From contig NZ_JAUSZZ010000001.1 of NCBI RefSeq assembly GCF_030818075.1, positions 1,426,001 through 1,490,000 of the forward strand: 64,000 nucleotides of DNA. Reading direction: 5' to 3'. The position numbers and the translations under genes are program-made. This DNA comes from Microbacterium proteolyticum (GTDB taxonomy: Bacteria; Actinomycetota; Actinomycetes; Actinomycetales; Microbacteriaceae). Below are positions 57,379 through 63,319 of the stretch, one piece after another; position 1 is the stretch's first letter, and every line of letters begins with the position of its first letter. Under the pieces are notes generated by a model that was not told where the DNA came from, did not search any database, and was given only the letters and a program-made list of their open reading frames with translations.

Positions 57379-57957
57379 TCATCCGCCCGTCGATGCCGTG
57401 AACGCGCGCTTGTACAGCTGACGCAGCCCGTCGGTGGCGGGACCGCTTTCGCAGGGCGAGATGAAGCCGTCCGTCGAGGCGATCAGATAGGTCTGCCCCG
57501 TCGCGAACAACACGCCGGTGCCGTCCGGTACCTGCTCGACGGTCAGCGTCGCACCGGGCGAGCCGGCGAACACCGTCGTCACTGAGAGGGTCACCTCGTC
57601 ACCGGTGACCGCCGTGGCGGTTGCTTCGTACGCAGTGTCGAACTCTCCGAGGCTCTCGACGCTCGGCGTCTCGCACACGGCGGGGCTCTCTTCCGGCCCC
57701 GGGCCCGGAGCCTGGATGGCGGGAGTGGCGACCAGACCGGCGATGAGCGCGCCGGCCGCGGCCGTCGCTGCCGCCCCGATCGAGACGCCGGCGAACAGAC
57801 GCTTCCTCGTGCGAGTGGCCGCGGGGACCCGACCCGTCGTTCCGTCGCGTTCCGCGGCGGCGACGACGCGCCGGATCCGGGCGTCGTCGAGGGGCGGGTG
57901 TCCCGCACTCGGGTCCGCCTTGCGCATGAGTGCCCTCAGGTCGTCGTCGTCGTTCAT
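57379..57957 (-). CDS. single-pass membrane protein, probable anti-sigma factor
   Basis: 192 aa. A cytosolic acidic N-terminus (MNDDDDLRALMRKADPSAGHPP, ~70 residues) is followed by one TM helix near 78-100 and an external domain with two Cys (VCETPS and SPCESG). The start ATG 57957 overlaps the sigma gene's stop (ATGA), with GGGGGAGAG upstream. Gene order and topology fit an anti-sigma factor; the short N-terminus lacks the canonical HxxxCxxC zinc motif. Confidence 0.65.
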   Translation of the reverse strand: MNDDDDLRALMRKADPSAGHPPLDDARIRRVVAAAERDGTTGRVPAATRTRKRLFAGVSIGAAATAAAGALIAGLVATPAIQAPGPGPEESPAVCETPSVESLGEFDTAYEATATAVTGDEVTLSVTTVFAGSPGATLTVEQVPDGTGVLFATGQTYLIASTDGFISPCESGPATDGLRQLYKRAFTASTGG

Positions 57958-58496
57958 CGCTCTCCCCCTTTCCTGGTGGTGCCGGTTGGTCGGCGTGGTG
58001 CTTCCATCTCTTGTCTCAACTTCTTCTTCGCCCGGTGGAGCCGGATGGTGGCCGCATTGGTGGTGATGTCGAGGACCGTTGCGATCTCGGGTGGCGCGAG
58101 CTCCTCCCACGCCCACAGGCGCAGGACCTCGGCGTCGGTGGCCGACAACCGCGCCAGGGCGGCGCGCAGGCAGTCCGCACGCGGATCCTCCTCCGGCCCG
58201 GCATCCACCGCATCGGTCGGCGGATCGACGGTCGTGATCCTCTCCACCACGCGCCACTGCCGTCTCGCCGACCGTTCGGCGTTGCGCAGGCAGTTGCGGG
58301 CGGTGACGTAAAGCCACGGAAGCGGCTCATCGGGCACGTCGTCGAAACGACGCCAGACGACCAGCATCGTCTCGGAGAAGACGTCGTCCGCGGTCTGGGG
58401 GTCGATTCGTCGACGCAGGAAGCGGAGGACGGCATCGCCGTGCGTTCGTACGAGCGATTCGTACGCCCGTGAACGATCCATCGAAAGTGTGTGCAC
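57954..58496 (-). CDS. ECF (sigma-70 family) RNA polymerase sigma factor
   Basis: 180 aa from GTG 58496. Region 2 (YESLVRTHGDAVLRFLRRRI..ADDVFSETMLVVWRRFDDVP.EPLPWLYVTARNCL) and region 4 (LSATDAEVLRLWAWEELAPPEIATVLDITTNAATIRLHRAKKKLR) are complete. ATG 58481 is an alternative start, but GTG 58496 lies 6 nt after CATGAT, the -10-like half of a motif shared with three other promoters here. Overlaps its putative anti-sigma gene. Confidence 0.88.
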   Translation of the reverse strand: MHTLSMDRSRAYESLVRTHGDAVLRFLRRRIDPQTADDVFSETMLVVWRRFDDVPDEPLPWLYVTARNCLRNAERSARRQWRVVERITTVDPPTDAVDAGPEEDPRADCLRAALARLSATDAEVLRLWAWEELAPPEIATVLDITTNAATIRLHRAKKKLRQEMEAPRRPTGTTRKGGER

Positions 58497-58502
58497 GACA
58501 TC

Positions 58503-58530
58503 ATCATGTCCTGCGGCGGCGGATCCTTTC
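58503..58530 (-). promoter_or_regulatory. candidate ECF promoter of the sigma operon
   Basis: GAAAGG (58530-58525), 16 bp, CATGAT (58508-58503), then 6 nt to GTG 58496. Matches the GAAAGR/CATGNW pair seen at 58564, 61660 and 62653, suggesting autoregulation. Confidence 0.45.
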
Positions 58531-58563
58531 GGCCGCGGATCATCGGATCATTTCCGCGAACGT

Positions 58564-58592
58564 GAAAGATGCGACGCGGTGGCGGCCATGCA
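58564..58592 (+). promoter_or_regulatory. candidate ECF promoter of the secreted protein-mprF operon
   Basis: GAAAGA (58564-58569), 17 bp, CATGCA (58587-58592). The preceding base context GTGAAAGA and the GC-rich spacer match the promoters at 61660 and 62653. Confidence 0.5.
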
Positions 58593-58657
58593 GGAGGTGC
58601 GCACCGCGATGATCACGTTCAGCAGAACGAGGCGCGGTGCTGATGGAGGTGCAGCAC

Positions 58658-59137
58658 ATGCGAATCAGAACCCCGACCGCCCTGACGGTCCTCGGCGCCG
58701 TGGTCGGCATGATCGGCGTGGGCCTCATCGGCGTGGGCGTCATCGGGTACGCGCCCGTCGTCGCGGCGCGGGACGCCATCACCTCGCACCTCAGCGCATT
58801 CGTCGTCGGCCCGCGCGACACGCTCATCTCCGGCGTGCGCGCGCCCGGCGGCTCCGTCATCGACGCGCCGGCGCCCCCGATCATCGTCACCCCGGATCAG
58901 CTGGCCGCCGGTGGGCCGGTGACGATGCGGCCGGGCCAGGCGCTGTACATCGTGCTCGACGCGGATCCCCTCGTGCGCGAGGGGGGCTCCAGCGACGACG
59001 ACGTCCTGCGGTTCGGAGCGGCCGACGGCGTCGGCGATGCGTCGTTCTTCGCTCTCGAGCCCGGAACGGCGACGGCCTGGGTGGTCGGAGCCGGCGGATG
59101 GACCGTGACCTTCGGCGTCACGGTCGTGAGCTCCTGA
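58658..59137 (+). CDS. secreted/anchored protein, paralogue 1 of three
   Basis: 159 aa. The N-terminal hydrophobic segment (ALTVLGAVVGMIGVGLIGVGVIG) is a long signal anchor. The mature part shares with the paralogues at 61759 and 62752 the stretch (I/L)VTP(D/A)(Q/D)L..GPVT...GQ.L.IVLD, an Asp-rich loop before a buried F/V-F pair, and a final W(V/I).G....(T/I)TF..TV. It has a single VTP..QL region and no DGVPAP repeat. GGAGG 8 nt before ATG 58658. The mprF-like gene follows after 2 nt, so the two are co-expressed. Confidence 0.65.
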   Translation: MRIRTPTALTVLGAVVGMIGVGLIGVGVIGYAPVVAARDAITSHLSAFVVGPRDTLISGVRAPGGSVIDAPAPPIIVTPDQLAAGGPVTMRPGQALYIVLDADPLVREGGSSDDDVLRFGAADGVGDASFFALEPGTATAWVVGAGGWTVTFGVTVVSS

Positions 59138-59139
59138 CC

Positions 59140-61620
59140 GTGCGGCAGACGTCCGGCGCGAGGCTTGCGGGCCGCCGGCAGCCGCTTCCCTTCGTTGCGT
59201 GCACCCTCGCCGCCGTCGTCGTGGGTGTCAGTCTGGTCTCGATGAATGCCGACGCCTTCCGCAGCGCCGGCTCGTTCGACCTGCGGGCGATCCTCCTGAC
59301 CCTCGTGCGCGTCGACGATCCCCTGTCGCTGTTCGTCGTCGGGATCGCCGTCCTGCTCGTGTGCGGGTGGGCGGAACGACTCATGGGCGGCGCGCGGACG
59401 CTGTTGGCCTATGCCGTCGGGGGCGTGGTCACGTCGGTGGCGGGTCTGACCGTCGGAGCCGGGGAGTCGCACCTGTTTCCGACCGTCCCTCTCGGCGAGA
59501 TGCCCGTGACGGGCGCGTCGCCGCTGCCCGCCCTGCTGGTCGTGGCGATGGCGGCGAGTTGCTTCGCAGGCGCCCTGTGGCGTCGGCGGGTGCGGGGGGT
59601 CTGTCTGCTCCTGGCGGTGACGATGTTCCTCTACTCGGCGTCCGCGAGCGACCTGTTCGCGCTGCTCGCGCTGCCCGTCGGGCTCGGTCTGGGGATGCTG
59701 GCCGGGGGGCAGCGGGCGACGATGCGCGTGCAGCGCAGCTCGCGCCACGAGGTGCGCGTGCTCCTGTGCGCGCTGACGGCGATCACCGCGATGGGGCCGA
59801 TCGTGGCGACGCTGTGGGGCAGCGGTGCCGGGTTGCTGTCCGTCTACGGATGGCTGTCGTACGACCCGATCGTCGTCGCCGACGGGGTGGTGTGCGTGGC
59901 GGGTTCGGCGCTCGTTCCCTGCCCCGACGCCGCGAGCTTCTCCGAGGTGCAGGCGCACGCCGGGTGGATCGCCGTCCTTCCCCTCCTCGTCCTCCTCGTG
60001 GCCGCATGGGGGATTCTCCGGGGCCAGCTCGCGGCTCTCGGGGTCGCCATGGCGGTCAACATGCTCATCTACGCGGGCATGAGCGCCCTGTTCATCGTGT
60101 GGGAGCCCGACACGCTCGCCCTGCTTGCACGGGTGCGCGGCACCGATGCCGACGGGGTATGGCAGACGTTGGTCGGGTTCGCCGTAGGTGCTGTCGTTCC
60201 TCTCGGTGTCGCGGTGACGCTCTTCCTGTCTCGACGGGCGGTCTCTGTCGCGCCGACGTCGAAGGCGTTGCGCACCTTCCTGACGACGGTCGCGCTCGCC
60301 GCCGCGGCCACCGTGGCGGTGTCGTTCGCGGGGGGCCTGGCCGCGGCGGATCACTTCTCGCCGCGGCTGACGCCGGAGACGCTGTGGCGCGATGCTCCGC
60401 TGCGGCTGCTTCCCCCGTCTCTCGTGCCGGGCGAGTGGGTGCACGCCGCACCCGCCACGCCGTTGGCCCAGGCTCTCTGGTATCTGCCGCCCCTCGTCTT
60501 CTGGCTGGTGTGCGTGGCGGCCACGGTGCGGCTGGTGATGCGCCCGCAGTCCGTCCGTGCGGACGAGGATCGCGCGCGGGTACGCGAGATGGTGCAGCGC
60601 GGGTGCGGTTCGCTCGGCTTCATGGCCACCTGGCCCGGTAACGCCTATTGGTTCGCCCCCGGGGCGGATGCCGGTTTCGCGTACCGTCCGCACGGGGGCG
60701 TCGCCGTGACCCTGGGCGGTGCCTTCGGTGGGGATCGCGGCCGGCCCGAGATCGGTGCGGCGTTCGTGGAGTTCTGCGGCGACAACGGATGGACCCCGGT
60801 CTTCTACAGCGTCGACGACGCGGCGGCCGACGCGCTCGGGGGATTGGGGTGGCAGCGGACGCGGGTGGCCGATGAAGCGATCCTCGACCCGCAGACCTGG
60901 ACCCCGGCGGGGAAGAAGCGGCAGGACGTCCGGACGGCCACCAACCGCGCCCAACGCGAGGGCGTCCTTGCGCAGTGGGTGTCGTGGGGCACGCTCGCGC
61001 TGGGCGACCGCGTGCAGATCCGCGAGATCTCGGAGGGCTGGGTCGCCGACAAGTCGGTGCCGGAGATGGGTTTCACCCTCGGCACCGTCGACGAAGCCGC
61101 CGACCCGGCGGCGCGGCTCATGCTGGCGCGCGATGCGTCGGGGCGGATCATCGCGGTCACGACCTGGATCCCCGCCTTCGGCGCACACGGTCTGTGCGGA
61201 TACACGCTCGACGTCATGCGGCGTCGGCACGACGCCATGAACGGGGTCGTGGAGTTCCTGGTCGGCGCCGCCGTCGAGCAGTTGCGTGCCGACGGATGCA
61301 CCATGTTGAGCCTGTCGGGTTCGCCCCTGGCGCCGAACCGTGTCGATGACGGCGAGGCGCCCTCGGCCGTCGATCGCTTGCTCGAGACGTCGAGCTGGCT
61401 GCTCGAACCCGCCTACGGATTCCGTTCCTTGGCCGCCTTCAAGAAGAAGTTCCAGCCGGACCTGCGTCCCCTGTGGATGGTGTACCCGGATGCCACCCAC
61501 CTCCCGGCTGTCGCGCTCGCGCTTCTGCGGTGTTACGTTCCGGGGCTCGACGTCGCGCGTGCCGCTCGGCTCGCGGCGCGCATGCGGCGGTCGCGCCGGT
61601 CGTCGATCGCGCGCGTCTGA
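59140..61620 (+). CDS. MprF-like aminoacyl-phosphatidylglycerol synthase (DUF2156)
   Basis: 826 aa. Residues ~1-460 are polytopic (about 12 hydrophobic helices). Residues ~490-815 form the C-terminal LPG-synthase domain: NAYWFAPGADAGFAYR, KKRQDVRTATNRAQREG, VPEMGFTLG, MNGVVEFLVGAAVEQLRADGCTMLSLSGSPLA. MprF proteins transfer Lys or Ala from tRNA to phosphatidylglycerol and flip it, giving resistance to cationic peptides. No LysRS domain is fused. The N-terminal third (LLVCGWAERLMGGARTLLAY) differs from the standard MprF flippase and faintly recalls rhomboid helices. GTG start. Confidence 0.8.
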   Translation: MRQTSGARLAGRRQPLPFVACTLAAVVVGVSLVSMNADAFRSAGSFDLRAILLTLVRVDDPLSLFVVGIAVLLVCGWAERLMGGARTLLAYAVGGVVTSVAGLTVGAGESHLFPTVPLGEMPVTGASPLPALLVVAMAASCFAGALWRRRVRGVCLLLAVTMFLYSASASDLFALLALPVGLGLGMLAGGQRATMRVQRSSRHEVRVLLCALTAITAMGPIVATLWGSGAGLLSVYGWLSYDPIVVADGVVCVAGSALVPCPDAASFSEVQAHAGWIAVLPLLVLLVAAWGILRGQLAALGVAMAVNMLIYAGMSALFIVWEPDTLALLARVRGTDADGVWQTLVGFAVGAVVPLGVAVTLFLSRRAVSVAPTSKALRTFLTTVALAAAATVAVSFAGGLAAADHFSPRLTPETLWRDAPLRLLPPSLVPGEWVHAAPATPLAQALWYLPPLVFWLVCVAATVRLVMRPQSVRADEDRARVREMVQRGCGSLGFMATWPGNAYWFAPGADAGFAYRPHGGVAVTLGGAFGGDRGRPEIGAAFVEFCGDNGWTPVFYSVDDAAADALGGLGWQRTRVADEAILDPQTWTPAGKKRQDVRTATNRAQREGVLAQWVSWGTLALGDRVQIREISEGWVADKSVPEMGFTLGTVDEAADPAARLMLARDASGRIIAVTTWIPAFGAHGLCGYTLDVMRRRHDAMNGVVEFLVGAAVEQLRADGCTMLSLSGSPLAPNRVDDGEAPSAVDRLLETSSWLLEPAYGFRSLAAFKKKFQPDLRPLWMVYPDATHLPAVALALLRCYVPGLDVARAARLAARMRRSRRSSIARV

Positions 61621-61632
61621 CCGGGCGGGATC

Positions 61633-61841
61633 CTCCGGGAAGTTTTTTTCGGGGGATGTGAAAGAGCGGCGGTGGTGGTGGCCATGTATGGGGTACAGGC
61701 CGCGTTGATCGCTCGTTCATCCGGAACGGGCTGCGGCGTCGACTGAAAGGTGCAGCTCATGCGCATTCGTACCCTCTCCGCTGTGACCGCCTCGATCCTC
61801 GCCGTGGGTCTGATGACCGGCGGAGCCGCCGCCTTCGCCGC
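61633..61841 (+). repeat. 209-bp perfect duplication, copy 1
   Basis: Identical base for base to 62626-62834 (offset 993). It covers a T7 tract, the ECF-type promoter, the 5' leader and the first 27 codons (signal peptide) of the secreted protein gene. Confidence 0.95.
61660..61688 (+). promoter_or_regulatory. candidate ECF promoter of paralogue 2
   Basis: GAAAGA (61660-61665), 17 bp, CATGTA (61683-61688). Lies in the duplicated block, 70 nt before ATG 61759. Confidence 0.5.
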
Positions 61842-62250
61842 GGCTCAGGAAGCCCCCACCCCCGACCAGAGCACCTTCGTCGACGGTGTGCCCGCTCCGA
61901 CCGACGAGGCGGACGCGACCTCCGAGAACGAAGAGGGCATCTTCATCGACGGGGAGCCGGCGCCGCTGTTCGTCACTCCGGCCGACCTCGCCAAGGGACC
62001 GGTCACGCTGGTGACCGGGCAGTCGCTGATCGTCGTGCTCGACACCGAGAACGGCGGGATCTTCACCGGAACCGGTGGGACCGACGACGATGCCGTGGTG
62101 CACTTCGACGCCGCGACGGTGGGCGCCGACGACGACGAGGCATCGTTCAACGCGGGGTTCTCGGCGGAGAAGGCCGGTGCCACGAAGGGCTGGATCATCG
62201 GCACCGACGGTCAGCGCATCACCTTCGACATCACCGTGACCGACTCCTGA
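61759..62250 (+). CDS. secreted acidic protein, paralogue 2
   Basis: 163 aa. Sec signal peptide (IRTLSAVTASILAVGLMTGG, cleavage near AAAFA-A). The mature chain starts with repeats of the type (F)(V/I)DG(V/E)PAP and then a ~105-residue domain (FVTPADLAKGPVTLVTGQSL...ITFDITVTDS), strongly acidic, without Cys. Likely an all-beta extracytoplasmic domain; function unknown. AAAGG 8 nt before ATG 61759. Ends in an 18-bp hairpin terminator. Confidence 0.8.
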   Translation: MRIRTLSAVTASILAVGLMTGGAAAFAAAQEAPTPDQSTFVDGVPAPTDEADATSENEEGIFIDGEPAPLFVTPADLAKGPVTLVTGQSLIVVLDTENGGIFTGTGGTDDDAVVHFDAATVGADDDEASFNAGFSAEKAGATKGWIIGTDGQRITFDITVTDS

Positions 62251-62262
62251 GCAGTCTCGAAC

Positions 62263-62300
62263 GAACCGGGGCCGGCGGAATCTTCCGCCGGCCCCGGTTC
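62263..62300 (+). terminator. strong hairpin after paralogue 2
   Basis: GAACCGGGGCCGGCGGAA / TTCCGCCGGCCCCGGTTC, perfect inverted repeat of 18 bp with a 2-nt centre, 12 bp after the stop. Confidence 0.85.
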
Positions 62301-62625
62301 TCGTCCGTCGGAGGACGCCGTGCTCCGCCGACGCCGCATGCGGAGCGCCGACACCGAGTCGGGAACCGGTCGTGATCGATGAGCCGGCCGCGTCCCGTGA
62401 CCCGCCTTCGCGCCGGGAGGGCTGTGCCGTGCCGCGTCCGCGACCCCGCCTTCGTGGCGGCCGGGTGGTGCCCTGTCGCGGCCGGGCGGGCCGTGCCGCG
62501 TCCGCGACCCCGCTTTCGCGGCGGGGCAGGACCGTGCCGTGCCGCGGGTGAAGCTCCCGTGCCGATGTCTCGCGCGGGCTCCTCTGATTTCTCCGCGCGT
62601 GCGGCGGCCACGGGCCGCCGGAACG
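62301..62625. other. intergenic segment between paralogues 2 and 3
   Basis: No gene is supported. Contains a direct repeat CGTGCCGCGTCCGCGACCCC at about 62428 and 62490 within a GC-rich tract and a GTCGGAGGACG/CTCCGCCGAC imperfect hairpin near 62307-62335. Confidence 0.5.
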
Positions 62626-62834
62626 CTCCGGGAAGTTTTTTTCGGGGGATGTGAAAGAGCGGCGGTGGTGGTGGCCATGTATGGGGTACAGGCCGCGTTG
62701 ATCGCTCGTTCATCCGGAACGGGCTGCGGCGTCGACTGAAAGGTGCAGCTCATGCGCATTCGTACCCTCTCCGCTGTGACCGCCTCGATCCTCGCCGTGG
62801 GTCTGATGACCGGCGGAGCCGCCGCCTTCGCCGC
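62626..62834 (+). repeat. 209-bp perfect duplication, copy 2
   Basis: Identical to 61633-61841; promoter, leader and signal-peptide codons of paralogue 3. Identity stops abruptly at codon 28. Confidence 0.95.
62653..62681 (+). promoter_or_regulatory. candidate ECF promoter of paralogue 3
   Basis: GAAAGA (62653-62658), 17 bp, CATGTA (62676-62681); part of the duplicated block. Confidence 0.5.
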
Positions 62835-63273
62835 TCCCGAGCAGTCGCCCGCCCCCCAGGCCGACACGTTCGTCGATGGAGTGCCCGCCCCGCAGGACGA
62901 CACGTTCATCGACGGTGTGCCGGCTCCGAGCGGCGACGACGAGGCCCCCGACGCGGACGGCGTGGTCCTCGGCGGCATGCCGTTCCCGCTGGTCGTCACC
63001 CCGGCCGACCTGGCCCAGGGGCCGGTGACGTTGCAGCTCGGCCAGGCGCTGATCGTCGTGCTCGACGCCGACAACGGCGGCGCCTTCACCGGCACCGGTG
63101 GAGCCGACGACGACGCCGTGGTGCACTTCGACGCGGCCGTCCTCAGCTCCGACGACGACGAGGTGTCGCTGAACGCGGCGTTCTCGGCCGACAAGGTCGG
63201 CAGCACGAAGGGGTGGATCGCGGGTGCCGACGGCCAGCGCACCACCTTCGACATCACCGTGACCGCAGCCTGA
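62752..63273 (+). CDS. secreted acidic protein, paralogue 3
   Basis: 173 aa. Signal peptide identical to paralogue 2 in sequence. The mature part has two FVDGVPAP/FIDGVPAP repeats followed by VLGGMPFP, then the shared domain (VVTPADLAQGPVTLQLGQAL...TTFDITVTAA), about 65-70% identical to paralogue 2 in the domain. No Cys and no cell-wall anchor motif. Ends in its own hairpin. Confidence 0.8.
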   Translation: MRIRTLSAVTASILAVGLMTGGAAAFAAPEQSPAPQADTFVDGVPAPQDDTFIDGVPAPSGDDEAPDADGVVLGGMPFPLVVTPADLAQGPVTLQLGQALIVVLDADNGGAFTGTGGADDDAVVHFDAAVLSSDDDEVSLNAAFSADKVGSTKGWIAGADGQRTTFDITVTAA

Positions 63274-63285
63274 GCGGCGCAGCAC

Positions 63286-63319
63286 ACCGGGGTCGGCGGA
63301 TCGTTTCGCCGGCCCCGGT
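63286..63319 (+). terminator. hairpin after paralogue 3
   Basis: ACCGGGGTCGGCG / CGCCGGCCCCGGT, 13-bp stem with one G-T pair, loop 8 nt. Related in sequence to the terminator of paralogue 2, so the whole unit was duplicated. It also lies just beyond the 3' end of the convergent Lrp gene. Confidence 0.7.

Follow-up and report, generated by a model that had tools for sequence, protein, structure and literature searches.

The window considered here, bases 1426001–1490000 (64,000 nucleotides) of the single-contig genome of Microbacterium proteolyticum (3,767,688 bp; G000), includes a gene for a sigma factor of the extracytoplasmic function (ECF) type, a gene for a putative anti-sigma factor, a gene for an MprF-like enzyme and genes for three exported acidic paralogues (sp1, sp2 and sp3). 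The question raised by this locus is whether the sigma factor directs the transcription of its neighbours. A first-pass annotation, made from the sequence of the window, had proposed a sigma regulon of this kind from one promoter motif seen at four sites. Comparison with relatives, the named ones being Microbacterium or a Microbacteriaceae metagenome-assembled genome, supports this proposal in four ways: the boxes of the promoter are conserved, unlinked paralogues keep the promoter, sigma and sp genes occur together, and the mprF relatives compared that lie away from the sigma gene are free of the motif. The locus is likely to represent a self-contained ECF sigma/anti-sigma module of envelope-stress type that regulates itself and drives exported proteins and, in part of its carriers, the MprF-like enzyme.

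The module locus is flanked by a homocysteine S-methyltransferase gene on one side and by an Lrp/AsnC regulator gene on the other. Its features, with coordinates in the window and with the basis for each assignment where one is recorded, are as follows.

57379..57957, minus strand: putative anti-sigma factor gene, 192 amino acids, one transmembrane segment (adjacency, hydropathy, weak NCBIfam match).
57954..58496, minus strand: ECF sigma factor gene, 180 amino acids, GTG start (Pfam domains, spacing of the GTG in orthologues).
58503..58530, minus strand: candidate sigma-gene promoter, with GAAAG and GGACATGAT separated by 14 bp (motif scan, alignment, conservation).
58564..58592, plus strand: candidate promoter of the sp1-mprF operon, GAAAG, 15 bp, GGCCATG (motif scan, leader alignment).
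58593..58657, plus strand: sp1 5' leader, which contains an inverted repeat.
58658..59137, plus strand: sp1, the first paralogue, 159 amino acids, either exported or anchored in the membrane (family alignment, long hydrophobic N-terminus).
59140..61620, plus strand: MprF-like aminoacyl-lipid synthase, 826 amino acids (a version of 840 amino acids is on record).
61641..61650, plus strand: A/T-rich tract 5' of the −35 box of sp2, possible UP element (base composition across 22 promoters).
61660..61688, plus strand: candidate promoter of sp2 (motif scan, leader alignment).
61689..61758, plus strand: 5' leader of sp2.
61759..62250, plus strand: sp2, secreted acidic paralogue 2, 163 amino acids.
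62634..62643, plus strand: A/T-rich tract 5' of the −35 box of sp3, same sequence as the sp2 tract, with the same possible role.
62653..62681, plus strand: candidate promoter of sp3, same sequence as the sp2 promoter.
62682..62751, plus strand: 5' leader of sp3, same sequence as the sp2 leader.
62752..63273, plus strand: sp3, secreted acidic paralogue 3, 173 amino acids, with DGVPAP repeats and a C-terminal Ig-like (immunoglobulin-like) domain.

The four sites of the first-pass annotation were all found at the positions given there (58530–58503 on the minus strand; 58564–58592, 61660–61688 and 62653–62681 on the plus strand). The pattern proposed, GAAAG(A/G), 16–17 bp and CATG(A/C/T)(A/T), averages 0.02 matches in shuffled windows, and four matches were reached in none of 100 shuffles. 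Across the 3.77-Mb genome, the pattern has four matches, all at this locus, and the reversed pattern has three; hence, the placement of the sites before these genes is informative and the raw count is not. The third and fourth sites are not independent, because sp2 and sp3 have in common an identical 209-bp block (61633–61841 and 62626–62834) that covers promoter, leader and signal peptide. As the motif was derived from these very sites, the relatives provide the real test.

The scan of related genomes that had been suggested together with the motif revealed GAAAG and GG(A/C/T)CAT at 33 of 34 promoters, those of M. proteolyticum included. In ten Microbacterium genomes, the boxes precede 11 of 11 sigma genes (G298 carries two module copies), 20 of 21 exported-paralogue genes and both lipoprotein-mprF operons. 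All 11 sigma promoters include GAAAG and GG(A/C)CATGAT; by sequence comparison, this points to autoregulation of the sigma gene through the motif that it shares with the targets. The promoter rows were aligned on the boxes, which favours the boxes, but all sigma promoters were kept in the set. Mean identity among six divergent clusters of sigma promoters was 1.00 in both boxes, 0.44 in the spacer, 0.28 in the 30 bases upstream and 0.53 in the first codons. In the ten carrier genomes, the pattern GAAAGN{14,16}GGMCATRA gave 22 matches, of which 20 fall at module promoters, and none in the reversed control. The two non-module matches have a 16-base gap, as compared with 14–15 at the module, and were not accepted as members. 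No match to GAAAGN{14,15}GGHCAT was present in 209,813 bases of 44 loci away from the module, several of which overlap and one of which (L081) is from the carrier G007.

As judged from these comparisons, the motif is a two-box ECF-type promoter that is better written GAAAG-N14/15-GG(A/C/T)CAT. The boxes of the original motif were thus retained, and its closing G and the two bases that follow proved not to be essential: CATT or CATA is found in five of 22 sp and lipoprotein promoters, and CATGAG precedes a fourth strong paralogue, sp4. This gene lies outside the window, 1.04 Mb off (G000:C1:445912–446346), has the same boxes and leader, and was missed by the original pattern because its site ends in CATGAG. 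In the M. proteolyticum genome, GAAAGN{14,15}GGHCAT has ten matches, five of which are at module genes including sp4; none of the remaining five was accepted as a regulon member. One of these five, at 435220, is 68 nt 5' of the start of a long open frame and has no counterpart among the seven matches listed for G320. A tract rich in A/T, with at least 68% A/T at seven of the nine positions from −19 to −11 before GAAAG in 22 promoters, is located 5' of the sp promoters and may act as a UP element.

Sigma orthologues with at least 75% identity are present in ten of 366 genomes of the genus, and strong sp relatives (E 1.9e-25 or better) are present in the same ten. Eleven further genomes of the genus have weak sp matches only (E 9e-6 to 6e-4), and the two that were read (G009 and G093) look like lipoproteins. 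Of 299 genomes sampled across 85 genera of the family, M. proteolyticum alone gave a match. In G000, G320 and G007, unlinked sp genes still carry the boxes, and G320 holds a counterpart of sp4. In G007, the junction that carries the module in G000, G320 and G318 contains no more of it than an sp gene with its promoter and an mprF remnant of 43 codons, and a complete module is found ~0.78 Mb away. Thus, an sp gene separated from the sigma gene has retained the boxes.

The sigma protein has Sigma70_r2 (PF04542) and Sigma70_r4_2 (PF08281) domains above the Pfam cut-off and, among the NCBIfam matches listed, the ECF superfamily model alone is above cut-off. The GTG start lies 9 nt past the CAT in 11 of 11 orthologues, suggesting that the sigma mRNA is probably leaderless. 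The anti-sigma gene overlaps the sigma stop codon by 4 nt, and a homologue adjoins the sigma gene at all 11 module loci. The encoded protein gives a weak match to NCBIfam CU044_5270 (20.4 bits against a cut-off of 100), and a profile search with its alignment gave a best E of 0.01 in solved structures and nothing strong in Pfam. The outer domain (about residues 95–180 of the protein encoded at 57382–57957) contains two conserved Cys residues and a pattern reminiscent of NTR/TIMP-like domains, for which no Pfam or PDB profile match was found.

More distant sigma homologues (43–53% identity) were found in eight further genomes, none of which has a strong sp match, and the module motif was not found at the eight loci. 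Upstream sequence was read for three of these. Two, with ~50% identity (L078 and L079), have a TGTAAGA...ACATG pattern, which may be the promoter code, since diverged, of a sister sigma factor; the third has a weaker form of it.

The enzyme had been described as MprF-like. It includes a rhomboid-like N-terminal fold, further membrane helices and an LPG_synthase_C domain. The C-terminal lipid aminoacyl-transferase domain expected of MprF is therefore present, and this part of the identification held; a plain MprF identity is not supported, as the N-terminus is rhomboid-like, without conserved His, and the NCBIfam MprF model NF033480 gives 149.9 bits against a cut-off of 600. Residues 15–194 of the structural model match rhomboid folds, and PDB 7duw aligns from residue 160 on (root-mean-square deviation 10.3 over 427 residues, taken over several domains at once). 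An active rhomboid protease requires a Ser-His pair. Among 65 aligned relatives, no His conserved in at least 80% was found in residues 1–200, and a function of the N-terminus as an active rhomboid protease was rejected because the catalytic His is not conserved. Relatives with the same layout were found across Microbacteriaceae, and no MprF-rhomboid fusion is named in the titles and abstract openings examined in searches of the open-access PMC literature.

The place of mprF in the regulon depends on its location. The gene adjoins the sigma gene at seven of 11 module loci (in one, G326, it is apparently frame-broken), and G319 has a remnant. In a comparison of the best 20 loci of matches in 131 genomes, all seven mprF relatives beside a sigma gene have the boxes, and all 13 away from a sigma gene (56–65% identity) lack them within 1.5 kb. 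The 13 include relatives in G318 and G299, which carry the sigma gene elsewhere. The proposed membership of mprF is hence upheld for the copies beside the sigma gene but not as a fixed feature. In G058 and G326, the mprF operon opens with a gene for a 292-amino-acid lipoprotein (L074:6572–7450 and L075:3645–4523) in place of sp1 and keeps the boxes; the L074 copy of this lipoprotein has no Pfam match. On the comparative evidence, the exported proteins are the constant output partner of the module, and mprF is optional.

Three observations weigh against the regulon as drawn. The sp gene of G326, the sole exception among the 34 promoters, has lost the −35 box (it is missing from the set of 22 promoter rows, yet is counted in the 20 of 21). 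The looser pattern GAAAGN{14,15}GGHCAT gave 36 matches in five carrier genomes, of which 20 are at module promoters, and eight in the reversed control, so that the box sequence alone is insufficient to define the regulon. Furthermore, the sp leaders are of common ancestry and part of their likeness is due to descent. The last point leads to an explanation in which the shared boxes are the mere footprint of duplication or gene conversion of sp leaders and not of recognition by this sigma factor. In keeping with it, the sp leaders can be aligned along their entire length, 209 bp are identical between sp2 and sp3, and the two leaders of one genome agree at more positions (164/164 and 158/164) than do orthologous leaders of different genomes (152–155/164), which suggests gene conversion as the source of the sp2/sp3 likeness. 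However, the sigma promoter has the boxes without any other clear likeness and with a spacer one base shorter, diverged leaders retain the boxes while their other bases vary, and so do the two operons that open with the unrelated lipoprotein gene. A mere footprint is thereby rendered improbable. There is similarly little probability that another sigma factor reads these promoters and that the sigma gene of the module is merely one more target. A shared promoter does not identify its sigma factor, and the M. proteolyticum genome has other ECF-like matches (six matches in the search); nevertheless, sigma and sp genes occur in the same ten of 366 genomes, all 11 sigma genes are themselves preceded by the boxes, and the motif is missing at the eight loci of the more distant homologues.

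In a further explanation, CATG would provide the start codon for a conserved leader peptide, or the conserved leader would serve as a regulatory RNA, and CATG would not belong to a −10 box. An open frame begins at the ATG of CATG in several leaders (MYGVQAALIARS-like), but four of the 18 leaders aligned have ATT or ATA instead of the ATG, and in others the frame is shifted; as neither start codon nor frame is conserved, the leader peptide was rejected. A nested stem shows some compensatory changes, with 91.6% of cells paired and a covariation score that was reached by five of 500 shuffles. The folding energy is, however, unremarkable in three of four leaders, the number of pair types is not above that of shuffles (302 of 500), and there is no credible Rfam match, one match being far below cut-off. 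The sigma gene, moreover, has the same box without such a leader. Either form of this explanation is highly improbable, and a leader stem could be present alongside the promoter, as an addition rather than an alternative. The promoters are very probably read by the sigma factor of the module.

The output proteins of this proposed regulon form a family that is known here from 20 protein clusters. They are acidic and contain one Ig-like domain each. The three paralogues had been described as secreted, and export is upheld; paralogue 1 and likewise sp4, both with long hydrophobic N-termini, may be anchored in the membrane instead of released. A 36-bp repeat in the sp3 coding sequence (62847–62928) encodes the DGVPAP repeats, the number of which differs among homologues. 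In the region between sp2 and sp3 (62383–62504), there are imperfect GC-rich tandem repeats with a 44-bp unit in 2.3 copies. A distant lipoprotein-type relative of the sp domain is encoded elsewhere in the M. proteolyticum genome (G000:C1:2765761–2766180; L126:4262–4681; E 1.9e-9). No module motif was found in the 9 kb around it, and it was not counted as a member.

The predicted Ig-like domain resembles chagasin, and GxGG is present in 29 of 29 aligned members. In small size and export, and possibly in their predicted Ig-like fold, the sp proteins are similar to the chagasin-type inhibitors EhICP2, chagasin and Cip1 of Pseudomonas syringae (PMC5014320), which would allow a role in the inhibition of host or rival proteases like that of the secreted Cip1. 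The motifs NPTTG and RPW given for chagasin-type (I42) inhibitors in PMC5014320 are, in contrast, missing in all 29 aligned members (0/29 and 0/29), and this role is unlikely. The sp proteins might instead be building blocks of the envelope or of a surface layer that are produced in large amounts under stress, and not decoys or inhibitors. The first Foldseek match is to domains 4–5 of the S-layer protein SbsC (E 4.9e-4), and dosage is suggested by the presence of two genes whose promoter and signal-peptide block are the same, whereas the single small domain per protein, the lack of any wall-anchoring domain detectable by Pfam and the strong acidity argue in the other direction; such a role is possible but tentative.

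The closest known parallel is sigma-E of Streptomyces coelicolor, an ECF sigma factor that drives mprF, sco3397 being fully sigE-dependent (PMC6767563). In both cases, transcription of an MprF homologue depends, or here would depend, on an actinobacterial envelope-stress ECF sigma factor with a promoter class of its own. Sigma-E differs in having GAAC / CGTCT promoters, control of sigE by CseBC and a large regulon, with 91 target promoters by chromatin immunoprecipitation sequencing (PMC6767563). The boxes described here do not correspond to GAAC / CGTCT; the module is small and encoded at its own locus, its focus is on exported proteins, and it has GAAAG / GGNCAT boxes and an adjacent putative anti-sigma factor. 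Its layout is that of autoregulated pairs of ECF sigma and membrane anti-sigma factors, in which a sigma-anti-sigma operon is combined with one motif before sigma and targets (PMC8103513). According to that review, the motifs of autoregulated ECF sigma factors allow target promoters to be inferred, and this is the logic followed in the present analysis. Regarding the enzyme, protection against cationic agents has been described for an actinobacterial MprF homologue (PMC10580965), and an extracytoplasmic catalytic domain for one such homologue (PMC8974105). Unlike the MprF/LysX synthases (PDB 7duw and 6lv0), the enzyme of the module appears to have a rhomboid-like fold in place of the usual first membrane half, and it is far under the NCBIfam MprF cut-off. 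A search of the open-access PMC literature for Microbacterium, ECF sigma factor and MprF together found nothing. The type of switch and an ECF-driven mprF are thus already known, and it is the output proteins that are unusual and unstudied.

The regulon reading can be put together as follows. The anti-sigma factor, anchored by one transmembrane helix, would hold the sigma factor until an extracytoplasmic signal frees it, as the family suggests. Free sigma factor would recognise the −35 box GAAAG and the −10 box GG(A/C/T)CAT, with 14–15 bp between them, and would transcribe the operon that encodes it as well as the exported-paralogue genes, the unlinked copies included. At seven of 11 module loci, it would also drive an operon whose second gene encodes the MprF-like aminoacyl-lipid synthase. 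The result would be a less negative membrane, with acidic Ig-like proteins at the cell surface or released from the cell, and these outputs would most likely shield the cell from cationic peptides or hydrolases; the module would then have a defensive role against cationic peptides or host hydrolases.

A more far-reaching reading, which is doubtful at present, is that of a relocatable, lineage-specific sigma module that serves mainly to produce a new family of exported acidic Ig-like proteins; outside the cell, these would soak up cationic peptides or would form a new class of hydrolase inhibitors. The module would have acquired a lipid-aminoacylating enzyme, since lost again in places, with a dead rhomboid as its first membrane half that may bind or present a substrate, and sp genes left behind on relocation of the module would stay wired to it in trans. 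The regulon proposed for M. proteolyticum and its relatives is compact, has a sharp promoter code, and would link an uncharacterised exported family to the control of membrane charge. The MprF-like architecture with its dead rhomboid-like domain, in turn, bears on how such enzymes may hold or move lipids.

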